A DNA stretch of 64,000 nt, taken from Naganishia liquefaciens (Eukaryota > Basidiomycota > Tremellomycetes > Filobasidiales > Filobasidiaceae). Below are positions 2,165-62,176 of the stretch, piece by piece (the stretch's first letter is position 1; each line of letters starts with the position of its first letter). A program made the translations under genes and the position numbers. The notes beneath the pieces were generated by a model. That model saw only the letters and a program-made list of their open reading frames with translations. It was not told the DNA's origin and made no database searches. The stretch is taken from assembly GCA_013423385.1 (NCBI GenBank), contig BLZA01000049.1, positions 682,001-746,000 of the forward strand, written 5' to 3'.

Positions 2165-2421
2165 GGCCGTGGGGCGTATACATGGGGGAGAGCAAGGGAG
2201 GGAGGGGAGGGGGGAGGGGAGGATGATATGGAAGTGCGCCCTAAGTGAGTTTGTTTACTTTTTCGCGCGGGAATACACGTACTTTTGTCCCCGCAGACTG
2301 GCTTCGTCATCGCAGGCGAGGGCCTGGTAATACTTGTCGATTCCACCCCATCCTATCCCATGGGGATCACTCGCCTCGCCTCGCCTCGCCTCGCCTCGCC
2401 TTTCCATCACAACTCACCGCC
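2165..2421. promoter_or_regulatory. Shared promoter between CDC27 and UBP6
   Basis: Only 257 bases separate the two opposed start codons, so both promoters and 5' leaders must lie here. It contains a G/A-rich tract at about 2195-2225 and the TCGCC repeat just upstream of the UBP6 ATG. No TATA box is evident. That the promoter is bidirectional is inferred from geometry only. Confidence 0.5.
2371..2400. repeat. Six perfect copies of TCGCC
   Basis: A pentanucleotide microsatellite of exactly 30 bases sits 21 bases before the UBP6 start codon, so it is probably transcribed as part of the 5' leader, where it would form a C-rich, unstructured segment. Confidence 0.9.
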
Positions 2422-4598
2422 ATGCCCCAGGTAGACATCAAGCACGCAGGCAAGGCCTACAAGGTCGACCTCGACCCGTCCCGGCCCGTCAGGGACCTCA
2501 AGGACCAGATCTACCAACAAACAGGCGTCCCCGCCGATCGCATGAAGATCATGATTGCCGCAAAACTCGTCAAGGACACGGACGACCTCGCCAAGATCAC
2601 GCTCAAGCCGGGACAGCCCATCACTGTCATTGGCACGGCGGGCCCGCTGCCCAAGGGTCCGTCAAAGCCCATGGTCTTTCTCGAAGACTTGCCCGAAGCG
2701 CAACTCGCCGCGACGAGGCCTCCGCTGGGCTTGCAAAATCTCGGCAACACGTGCTACATGAATGCCTCGCTTCAAGCCATCCGGACCATCCCGGAACTCG
2801 ACCCGGCGCTTAAGGAGTATAAAGCGCAACCGGGGGCATCGGCGGCGGATCCCGATGCAGCATTCACGCAGAGCTTGAAGACCTTGTTTGGAACGATGCG
2901 CGAGAAGAAGACGGCAGAGGAGGCGGTGGTGCCGTTGGTGCCGTTGACGACCTTGCGCAGGGTCGCACCGCAGTTCCAGGAACAGGATTCCCATGGGGGC
3001 TATTCGCAGCAGGGTGAGTCGCGCGTGATGGTCTCTCTCTCTCCGTGTCTGTGGCGGGGCGTCTCGTGCTGATGACTCGCACGCGTGTAGACGCCGATGA
3101 AATGTGGACGCAGACTATTTCGAGCTTGCATCACTCCCTTCGGCCTTCCGGCTCTGCCAAGTCATTCGTTGATCAATACCTCAGCGCCGACTTGCAACAG
3201 ACGTGAGCCCATTCGTCCCATCCCTGTCGTTCGTGCCGGCTAACACTTCCCGCTAGCCTCACGTGCGACGAAGCCCCCGAGGAGGAACCGAGCGTCAAGG
3301 TGGATCGCGTCTTGAAGCTCGATTGTAACATCAGCATCGAAACCAATCAGCTCATGAGCGGGATCAAGGATGTGCGTCTCCCCCCCCCCGCCGACCTTTT
3401 TCCCTGGTTGTATCGTGCGCTAATTGCCCGCCTGCGCAGAGCTTTGATCAAAAAATTGAAAAGAACAGTCCATCCCTCGGTCGTACAGCGGTGTATACGC
3501 AGTAGGTGCCGGCTCTGGTGTATGCGCGTCGGAAAGGAGGCTGATGCACGGAATTAGAAAGTCGCGGCTGTCTCGGCTTCCGACGAATTTGACGATCCGT
3601 ATGTCCCTTGTTTGGCGTTTGAGCGTGGGCTGATGCGTTTGGGCAGACATGGTGCGGTTCTACTGGAGAGCGGATATTCAGTGCGTCATTTCATGGGGGT
3701 GCCCTCGTTCGCGGGACGCTGACGATGGTGTTTTCAATCGCGAATAGAAAGAAAGCCAAGATTATGCGACGCGTCGAATTCCCATTCGAGCTCGACGTAT
3801 TTGACCTCGTATGCAATTTCACGTCATTGCCCGGCGAAAACGTTGCCCGCTGACGGAATCACCCATCTGTTTCATACCAGTTGACAGACGACCTCAAGGC
3901 CAAAGTGACGCCCATCCGCGCCGCCGTATGGGACAACCTCAAGGCGCGGGAAGACCGCGTCAAGCTCCGTCGTCGAACCCACAAGAGTTCCCGACCCGTT
4001 GTGAAAGCCCCAGGCGGCGACGAAGCAGCAGCTTCCTCCGGTTCCGCGACGCCGATGGAGGTGGATGGGGTCGAGGATGAGGCCGAGGTGAGGAAGCGAG
4101 AGGGGGAGAAAGTGCGGGAGCTCGTAAGAGCCGCTGCGGGCGGGGAGCCGGAGCCGGGCACGAATTGGAGTGGGCTTTACGAGTTGAGCGGTGAGTTATC
4201 CAAGGGGTCCTGGGCGGAGGTGCGCGGGGAAAACTGACGGGGGAGGGGCAATTTGTGCAGCGATCGTCACACACAAGGGTCCTTCTGCTGATTCCGGTAT
4301 GTACACATGTGAGCGGGAGATGGCGGTTCCCGCGTCTCACGCTTGTTCGTGCTCCCACAGGCCACTACATTGCGTGGACGAGGCAGGAGGGAAGCGACAA
4401 TGTCGTCCCGGGCGAGGAAGACTGGTACAAATTCGACGGTCCGTCTCTTCTCTTTTCTTTTCGGCGCGTTCCCCGCCCGCTGATACGCGGTGAGCAGATG
4501 ATAAAGTGTCGACAGTGAAAAAGGACAAGATCCAGGCGCTCGCTGGCGGTGGAGAGGATAGCGTTGCGTACATCCTGTTGTACCGGGCTGTAGTGTAG
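2422..4598 (+). CDS. UBP6: Proteasome-associated ubiquitin hydrolase Ubp6/USP14
   Basis: Cysteine deubiquitinase that docks on the proteasome lid/base and trims ubiquitin chains from bound substrates. The start at 2422 (after CACCGCC) opens directly into a ubiquitin-like domain (residues 1-75). The catalytic Cys box follows as GLQNLGNTCYMN. QQDADEMWTQ spans the first intron (3014 onward) and matches the USP14 QQDA motif. Next come NSPSLGR, the SRLPTNLTIR and VRFYWRADIQ strands, and the His box GHYIAW with WYKFDD after it. The C-terminus YILLYRAVV ends at a TAG at 4596-4598. There are about ten exons with introns of 45-75 bases; all key residues are present. CHO2 follows on the same strand with very little space, so the two genes are tandem. 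Confidence in identity is very high; a few splice sites around 3500-3660 are less sure. Confidence 0.93.
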
Positions 4599-25009: not shown

Positions 25010-26180
25010 AATGTGCCTTGTATGGACGGAGGCAGGGATGTCGTTATATGATGTAAAGAAGTATAGAGGAAGCAGAATAACGTGTGCGGGTTGTGGGTGA
25101 GAGGTGGATTTGAGAGGTGACTGCTGAAACGATCGAAACGCGTCGCGTCGAGCCAAACGCGTCACAGGGCGTTTTGAGCTCCTTTCCCGAGCCCTTCTCA
25201 CAGCTCTTCTCCCAAGTTGTTGGCCTCTTCAGCAGCATTCAAGTTGATCCAGACCGCCTGTAATATGCAATTGGCAACCGCAAGAGCTATCTCTTGCAGC
25301 CGAAAGCACAATGTGTTCATTATGCGACCTGCCGGACATCATGAGGCTCTCCTGTAACAGGTGATCAGCCTTGTGTGCGGCCTTCCGACGCTGCTTCAAT
25401 CCTGCTATTATGATGTCCCATGCAGTGAAAGATCGCGATGAATGATTCTTAGACAGCGTCAACTTGCACACTACTTAGATGTCACTGTGGTCGTAAGGTG
25501 TGCATTGCTGATATCGTGGGGGAGGGGGGTCGTCACACGGGTGAATCGTATAAACATTGCGGCCTGTCCTGGACATCGCTTCGTGAAGTCTCGACTGTAA
25601 AACTCTAGGATCGCATGTGGTTTCAAAAAGGCACCACCTGGGTGCGCGCTCGGCAAACCAGATACTTCCAGATCATCCTGAGCTTGGATGCCTTGTCAAC
25701 ATCCGTAGAAGGTTGGGCCCGATGTGAGGGTATTTCGCTTCGACCATTGCACACCTTTGTGCCGTTGCTCCTCTCGCAGCCATCGACGAACGCCATGCAG
25801 CTTTTAGACTGACCAGGTGGATATTGCTTACCAATCTGACCCATTCAATACAGCGTCCTCTCGAATGAGCAGACTGGTCGCCCTGCGGATTGTTGGAATG
25901 ACGAATGCTTGAGCGCTTTTCGCTGCGATTCAGCAGCTGAAAAGGAAGTGAGGCATTTTCGCTCCCTCGGATTGGATCCGCTGATATGATAAGATCGAGC
26001 AAAAGCGTGGCAAGGCGCACGAGCAGAGAGGTCTGACGGGCAAAGCTGAAGGGAAGAAAGAAAATCACCTGCCGAGCATTTTTGTTTCCGCGTCTGCGCG
26101 ATTTGTGCTGCCGCGGGGATTCTGCCGTTCGCCTCGGGGTGAGTCTCGAGATGATGATGATGAGGTGTAAGCACGAGTGC
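25010..26180. other. Region upstream of the metallothionein; possible unrecognised minus-strand exons
   Basis: Overlapping open frames on the minus strand between 25471 and 26100 can be joined by GT-AG introns (for example one near 25821-25845) into a short protein, but I could not find a consistent exon set or family. A start MLGR near 26080 followed by Arg/Ser-rich residues (ARSYH) is weakly like a mitochondrial presequence. I therefore call no gene. Regulatory elements of SLD2 and of the metallothionein must also lie here. Confidence 0.3.
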
Positions 26181-26188
26181 TATATAAG
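26181..26188 (+). promoter_or_regulatory. TATA box of the metallothionein gene
   Basis: TATATAAG stands 124 bases before the start codon in an otherwise GC-rich promoter. A strong TATA box is typical of sharply inducible stress genes. Function is inferred from position. Confidence 0.6.
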
Positions 26189-26304
26189 AGTTTGGTGCTT
26201 TTCGCTTTCTTGTGGCAACGACTGTCTCCCATCACGCATACACGCCTATACTTCTCCTGCGCGACTTTACCAACTTTTCACTGAACATAGAATCAACAGC
26301 AGCA

Positions 26305-27551
26305 ATGTCTACGTATGTCTCTTCAGCGGTAACGCCGTTAGGCCCGACTGACCCCTTGAGGACAGCTCGACCATCGTTCCCGCCGCCACTCAGTCTGGAT
26401 GCTCTTGCGGCGAAAGGTGCACCTCTTGTGGCCAGGGTGACTGCAAGTGCACCTCTTGCAAGTGTGAATCGTGTCCCAAGGGCAAGTCTTCCGGGTGCAA
26501 GTAAGTTCAAATCAGTTGTGCGCGTCCCGTCACGTCGCTGATCCTGGTTCGCGGCAGGTGTGGAGACTCGTGCAGGAAGTGCGGAGACGGCAAGGACTGC
26601 TCTTGCGCCAGCTGCTCTTGTGAGGGATGCCCGAACAAGGCTCAGACCAAGTCTTCCGGCTGCGAGTGAGTCGTCCTTTTCGCGTACCTGAGTTGGCACT
26701 GATCCTTTGTTTGTCAGTTGCGGTGAATCGTGCCAGAACTGCAGCGGAGGCTCATGCTCGTGCTCCAAGTGCACTTGTAAGAATTGTCCCAAGGCTCAGG
26801 CCAAGTCTTGCGAGTACGTACCTCACTCGAAACAGCAATGATCTAAAACTTATGTCCTTGTTTTCTCACAGCTGCGGAGACTCCTGCCAGAAGTGCGGCG
26901 ATGGCCAGAACTGCTCGTGCTCGAACTGTACATGCAAGAACTGTCCCAACAAGGTCCAGACCAAGACCTGCGAGTAGGTGTCTGTCTTCGTGCTCCTTGA
27001 CATTAAAGACTCACGTCAATTTTTGCCTCAGTTGCGGAGACTCCTGCCAGAAGTGCGGCGATGGCAAGAACTGCTCGTGCTCGAGCTGCAGCTGTGAAGG
27101 TTGCCCCAACAAGGCTCAAGACACTTCATCGGGTTGCAGGTACGTATCGTCTTATGCCTGCCTGCACGATATCCGCTGACCTTTGTATTTCAATAGGTGC
27201 GGCGACAACTGCACAAGCTGTGCGAACGGCCAATGCAGCTGCGGTGCCAAATGTACCTGCACCGGCTGTAAGAACCGAGATTCCGCTTCGGATTGCAAGT
27301 GAGTTCTCTGATTTCCCAATCGCTGGACAGACGCTGATGCTTCTTGGGTGCAGGTGTGGCTCGAGATGCCAGGCTAAATCCGATGGAACTTGCTCGTGCG
27401 AGGGTGAATGCACATGCAAGAATTGTCCGTCCAAGACCAAAGATCACGGTGGCTTGCGAGAGGTGAGTAGGGCGTGGAAACCTTTTTTGAACGAATGCTC
27501 ATCGTTGCCGTATAGTTTGCATCTGAGGGCAAGAAGTCTTGCTGCTCGTAA
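26305..27551 (+). CDS. Multi-module metallothionein, one cysteine module per exon
   Basis: Cys-rich protein that should bind Cu(I), Zn or Cd through thiolate clusters in the cytosol. My exon set is 26305-26312, 26366-26500, 26558-26665, 26718-26813, 26872-26973, 27032-27139, 27197-27298, 27354-27462 and 27516-27551, giving 267 residues with about 64 Cys. Exons 2 to 8 each hold one module of the type CGDSCQKCGDGKNCSCSSC followed by CxCxxCP and a KxQ spacer; most modules have nine Cys. The introns before modules are all in phase 2, just before the first Cys codon, and exons 3-7 are multiples of three. The tail ends in KKSCCS and TAA at 27551. A GTAAGC donor overlaps that stop; splicing to 27623 would give a slightly longer tail ending at 27659. 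Most fungal metallothioneins are far shorter; Cryptococcus CMT1/CMT2 are the nearest known analogues. Confidence 0.92.

Positions 27552-57998: not shown

Positions 57999-62176
<4,178 letters not shown>

Follow-up and report, generated by a model that had tools for sequence, protein, structure and literature searches.

Long metallothioneins built from tandem Cys-rich units have been described in Tremellales. The Tremella mesenterica protein TmMT consists of 257 aa with 57 Cys and is encoded by 10 exons of 63-105 bp with introns of 48-204 (PMC4755600). Its Cys residues are arranged in six units of the form CXCX3CSCPPGXCXCAXCP (7 Cys) and two units of 6 Cys, with three N-terminal Cys in addition, and on these figures roughly one unit to each exon is arithmetically possible in TmMT too. 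TmMT has been proven to be a Cu-thionein, and CnMT1 and CnMT2 (CMT1 and CMT2) of Cryptococcus neoformans are reported as such; the latter two have three and five regions of 7 Cys in 122 and 183 aa, respectively, the abstract giving 186 in place of 183 (PMC4755600). More distant parallels are the Agaricus crocodilinus AcMT1, which grew by internal duplication including an intron (PMC12508003), and the snail multi-domain and Oikopleura metallothioneins, which carry tandem Cys domains (PMC7084494, PMC8283569); in Oikopleura OdiMT2, the number of repeats varies among populations (PMC8283569).

Here we describe a locus of Naganishia liquefaciens at 26305-27551 on the forward strand of the window, that is, the whole stretch of 64,000 nucleotides that was analysed. 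Splicing at GT-AG sites gave a predicted frame of nine exons and 804 nt including the stop codon, which encodes 267 aa. All eight introns had GT-AG borders and lengths of 52-58 nt, and all eight donors matched GTRNGT. Introns 1-7 were in phase 2 and intron 8 was in phase 0; exons 2-7 were all phase 2-2 with lengths divisible by three. Exon 1 (26305-26312, 8 nt) provides the ATG, one more codon, and the first two bases of the third codon, which intron 1 splits. Module 1, preceded by the N-terminus and followed by the first Cys of module 2, lies on exon 2 (26366-26500, 135 nt). Exons 3 (26558-26665, 108 nt), 4 (26718-26813, 96 nt), 5 (26872-26973, 102 nt), 6 (27032-27139, 108 nt), and 7 (27197-27298, 102 nt) encode the remainders of modules 2, 3, 4, 5, and 6, respectively, each together with the first Cys of the following module. 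The remainder of module 7 (8 Cys) lies on exon 8 (27354-27462, 109 nt, phase 2-0), and exon 9 (27516-27551, 36 nt) closes the frame with the C-terminal residues, a Cys-Cys pair among them, and the stop codon. The lengths of exons 3-7 and the phase 2 position of the introns between modules, both given in an earlier note on this DNA, were borne out in this frame, and exon 2, which the note did not list, proved to be a further phase 2-2 exon. Judged from the sequence, this is a real metallothionein gene, and nine exons are its best predicted model.

The acceptor of intron 1 was predicted from the sequence and was selected because it restores the Cys frame. An alternative model with the acceptor at 26393 lost the Cys frame, and the acceptor before 26366 was preferred. 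An in-frame variant combining the donor GTAACG (26329) with the acceptor at 26393 was rejected on a by-eye reading because of its poor donor. At the other end of the gene (27440-27470, forward strand), an out-of-frame TGC GAG was seen by eye to end exon 8 directly before the donor, where exons 3-5 end in TGC GA in frame. Exon 8 may once have ended in phase 2 and have reached its present phase-0 end through a shift of one base.

The predicted protein contained 64 Cys, 21 CxC, and 18 CxxC, together with one Phe, one His, and no Tyr or Trp. This combination of a high Cys content, CxC and CxxC motifs, and almost no aromatic residues or His places it in the broad class of metallothioneins; Pfam and PDB searches with the predicted protein gave no match. 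Re-cutting the protein at C-x-C-G yielded seven tandem modules followed by the C-terminal Cys pair. Six modules contained 9 Cys in the arrangement CxCx3Cx2Cx4-5CxCx2-3CxCx2C, and the last contained 8 Cys in the arrangement CxCx3Cx7CxCx3CxCx2C. When the exon borders were compared with the module cut, introns 2-7 each proved to interrupt the middle codon of an opening C-x-C, so that the exon before the intron supplies the first Cys of each of modules 2-7. Each exon is therefore a module in circular permutation, and C-x-C is restored whenever one of exons 2-7 is joined at its end to the start of one of exons 3-8. The earlier note had assigned one Cys module to each of seven exons, with the introns just before the first Cys codon and no module split. 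The count of seven modules stands, but the coincidence of module and exon does not, and the introns are located inside the opening motif. These borders explain better than the absence of split modules why the unit is exchangeable.

The gene resembles TmMT in its length, its tandem modular Cys units with spacers, its many small exons and short introns, and the Pro after the last Cys of the unit, which is found in six of the seven modules (module 6 has Lys). The repeating unit is different, because TmMT uses 7-Cys units whereas this gene uses six modules of 9 Cys, which contain an extra Cx2C, and one of 8 Cys. The unit CXCX3CSCPPGXCXCAXCP was absent, and no Pro-Pro occurred in the modules; the gene is therefore filed as a variant rather than as a member of the exact CnMT/TmMT type. 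CnMT1 and CnMT2 are likewise basidiomycete modular Cu-thioneins, but they have fewer units of 7 Cys each and are encoded by two genes, whereas one locus was found here. By analogy, the gene is a variant of the long Tremellales-type modular metallothioneins and would work like TmMT and CnMT. In AcMT1, by contrast, one fragment was inserted within an exon and the long homologues reach ≤59 aa (PMC12508003), and the snail Alinda 9md and 10md genes are intronless and encode animal domains (PMC7084494). With 267 aa and 64 Cys against 257 aa and 57 Cys, the predicted protein exceeds the published TmMT in both length and Cys count, with a different repeating unit, although we do not claim it as the longest, since a snail 10md gene of 960 bp (PMC7084494) and proteins of >300 aa in some mollusks and fungi (PMC12508003) are reported. 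No description of a module-per-exon fungal metallothionein was found in the titles and abstract openings of the literature matches listed.

Among 5.8 billion predicted proteins searched, 307 were candidates and four of these were matches (P0001-P0004); neither CnMT nor TmMT itself appeared among the matches listed. A second protein search recovered P0001-P0003, and the use of exons 2, 7, and 8 as queries gave four candidates, none of which was significant. P0001-P0003 have the look of gene calls made in prokaryote style on the genomic DNA of metagenomic relatives; each reads through exons and introns in one frame, with one exon in the Cys frame and its neighbours shifted. P0001 and P0002 cover exons 4, 5, and 6, with exon 6 in the Cys frame. 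P0003 covers part of exon 3, then exons 4 and 5 and the start of exon 6, with exon 4 in the Cys frame and exon 3 partly read in another frame (both by eye). Exon 5 is out of frame in all three. The placements of exon 5 in P0001-P0003 and of exon 6 in P0001 and P0002 were computed; by eye, we placed exons 3 and 4 as well as the beginning of exon 6 in P0003 and judged the agreement of splice sites with the relatives. On this reading, the gene calls of the relatives keep the same exon order across the same sites, in support of the splicing predicted around exons 3-6. In P0004, found on a contig of 737 bases, three similar modules are read without introns.

DNA and protein searches of the genome with the central exons found no second convincing metallothionein locus; the reach of one such search was limited, as it listed six exons of this gene and missed exon 8. 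In a search with the P0004 modules, the best place of this gene itself (E 0.0114) ranked below a place on C6 (E 0.0024, one stop inside). No Cys modules were seen by eye in the translation of the latter (L013), and it was judged to be a chance match. Elsewhere on the forward strand of the window, an ORF of 658 aa (59569-61545) had the RNA polymerase III subunit RPC2 as its best PDB match, and an ORF at 2245-3072 matched ubiquitin and UCH domains. The latter is presumably a ubiquitin hydrolase of the Ubp6/USP14 kind. The IMPDH encoded by the genome matched that of C. neoformans (PDB 4AF0) at 318 of 405 aligned positions, counted without the final stretch of the alignment, which points to a place in Tremellomycetes outside C. 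neoformans.

We compared the exons with one another to investigate the history of the modules. The DNA identity among exons 3-6 was 71-77%, and exons 2, 7, and 8 were 42-56% identical to each other exon. Exons 5 and 6 agreed at 47/48 positions in the first 48 aligned nt and at 31/54 in the remainder (Fisher p 7e-7, with the cut between the 5′ and 3′ parts placed after inspection of the sequences). All 16 same-residue codons among the first 18 agreed, which has a chance of 9e-6 under the codon use of this gene if the stretch and the pair are treated as chosen beforehand, without correction. Comparison with the relatives was made on protein readings only, and shifted frames were used for exon 5 because they expose synonymous sites. 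In the 5′ half, exon 5 matched its own exon 6 at 18/19 and 17/18 residues (two shifted frames) and exon 5 of P0001, P0002, and P0003 at 14/19, 14/19, and 13/18 residues, respectively. In the 3′ half, the corresponding values were 4/16 against its own exon 6 (one frame) and 14/16, 13/16, and 14/16 against exon 5 of the relatives. The 5′ half of exon 6 matched exon 6 of the relatives at 17/18 and 16/18 residues in the Cys frame only, in which synonymous sites are hidden. The identity thus flips inside exon 5, which indicates that the duplication predates the split from P0001-P0003 and that this lineage probably underwent a later exchange of a short tract. Exons 5 and 6 probably go back to an old duplication and acquired a conversion-like tract afterwards; their likeness could come in part from selection on a short peptide.

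The earlier note had regarded modules 4 and 5 as nearly identical and as the products of a recent duplication. Over their first 48 aligned nt, exons 5 and 6 are indeed nearly identical, which speaks for such an origin, but the likeness fails in the remainder. In addition, exon 6 overall resembles exon 3 (81/108) as much as it does exon 5 (78/102), the introns preceding exons 5 and 6 are unlike (introns 4 and 5, z 1.31), and P0001 and P0002 have both exons in orthologous form. A recent whole-exon duplication is highly improbable on this evidence. Among the 15 pairs of introns 2-7, no clear similarity was found (best z 3.16, introns 2 and 7), and intron-exon duplication units are therefore not directly visible. 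Six symmetric exons in a row have a probability of about (1/3)^6 by our own arithmetic if the phases are independent, and duplication of a phase 2-2 exon gives the symmetry automatically. The proposal of the note that a long modular metallothionein grew by exon duplication is supported, and the symmetry is evidence of duplication and not of a splicing programme.

The note had further proposed that the gene makes metallothioneins of several sizes by exon skipping, and in a regulated version of this idea one or more of exons 2-7 would be omitted according to metal load. The claim of the note that exons 3-7 can be skipped without loss of frame agreed with our computation, in which the frame survives any single skip of exons 2-7, with 54 or 55 Cys left, but not the loss of exon 8; joins among exons 2-8 rebuild C-x-C. 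Such symmetry is, however, already expected from duplication alone, all eight donors fit the consensus, and the short introns fit intron definition, which is proposed as prevailing in fungi and in which failed recognition leads to retention (PMC3925392). Skipped exons accounted for 31/1,266 events in C. neoformans B-3501A and 31/1,340 in JEC21 (our sums from the table), with an average of 3% over the fungi studied (PMC3925392), and RT-PCR of TmMT gave a single band of the expected size with the same intensity in the presence of copper (authors' data not shown; PMC4755600). No evidence for several sizes was found, and regulated skipping is extremely improbable. Intron retention is the better splicing idea. 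A retained intron would stop translation after whole modules and produce graded, shorter metallothioneins: if any one of introns 2-7 is kept, translation meets a stop within it, which in introns 2, 3, 5, and 7 (four of the six) is the first full codon, and the product has 10, 19, 28, 37, 47, or 55 Cys, respectively (computed). In C. neoformans, retention outnumbers every other type of alternative event, and 98% of ORF events did not increase when upf1 was deleted (PMC5006051). Nevertheless, an early stop follows from phase 2 and common donors, and 18 of the 65 crude candidate introns in the 64-kb window would stop at the first full codon if in phase 2, so that four in six is at most weakly unusual. 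Intron-retaining mRNAs are held from export in the model of the same source, which states that alternative splicing contributes little to the proteome (PMC5006051). A retention ladder is very improbable on balance. Quite improbable, too, is a broader arrangement in which module number varies between strains by exchange between exons while retention or skipping yields graded lengths within the cell, matched to metal load; if true, the exon borders in C-x-C would make each middle exon a plug-in unit.

In regard to the metal, an alternative to a Cu-thionein would be a metallothionein mainly for Cd or Zn, or one that serves as a general thiol store. In favour of this alternative, the 9-Cys module, which has an extra Cx2C, is unlike the copper unit that has been reported, but the proteins of nearest build, TmMT and CnMT, are Cu-thioneins (PMC4755600), and the genome encodes a copper-fist factor; we consider the alternative unlikely. 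The copper-fist domain, a candidate regulator, gave one strong match in the genome (81.5 bits; C9:127711-127824, minus strand, L009 1501-1614), and two further weak places were below the cut-off. The copper-fist factor Cuf1 of C. neoformans binds and activates the CMT1 promoter at high copper (PMC13343922), whereas a 2019 review reports no significantly enriched Cuf1 motif at high copper (PMC6337107); a low-copper CuRE consensus is given in PMC7961099. TmMT was not induced by copper and seems constitutive (PMC4755600). Upstream of the present gene, TTTTCGCT occurred at 25917, 25956, and 26199 on the forward strand (25917-26206), that is, three times in 800 nt against six times in the 64-kb window, a count made post hoc, and it may be a regulatory element. 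A TATA-like element was seen by eye at 26181-26188 (forward strand), about 120 nt before the ATG. Ace1-type HTHNNGCTGD sites were absent from the 800 nt upstream of the gene. TTTGCTC was found once (reverse strand, 26003) and TGCRCNC twice. Because the TTTTCGCT count was post hoc, no Ace1-type site was present, and no enriched high-copper Cuf1 motif is reported, metal control of this gene is something that we infer. The copper preference of its product is likewise an inference.

Taken together, the reading that we prefer, with a probability of roughly 0.78, is that the locus encodes a long metallothionein sequestering Cu(I), which grew by tandem exon duplication with an exchange between exons 5 and 6 and whose mRNA is normally fully spliced. 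Cu(I) would be held in Cys-thiolate clusters of the seven modules and the C-terminal Cys pair, and by analogy with TmMT, in which 57 Cys give Cu40-42 as the major species, the fully loaded protein would contain about 45-47 Cu(I). The modules would descend from one ancestral phase 2-2 exon through several rounds of tandem duplication. Since a first Cys closes exons 2-7 and a second Cys opens exons 3-8, each unequal exchange would add or remove a whole module with C-x-C kept. After the exons had diverged, a conversion-like exchange of about 50 nt would have brought exons 5 and 6 into agreement in their 5′ halves, and the resulting mRNA would normally be spliced in full. Since the borders lie inside C-x-C, both the frame and the motif survive exchange between exons, which offers a concrete route for the growth of a metallothionein by whole modules. 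Such exchange may also make the modules more alike, as the mosaic of exons 5 and 6 suggests.
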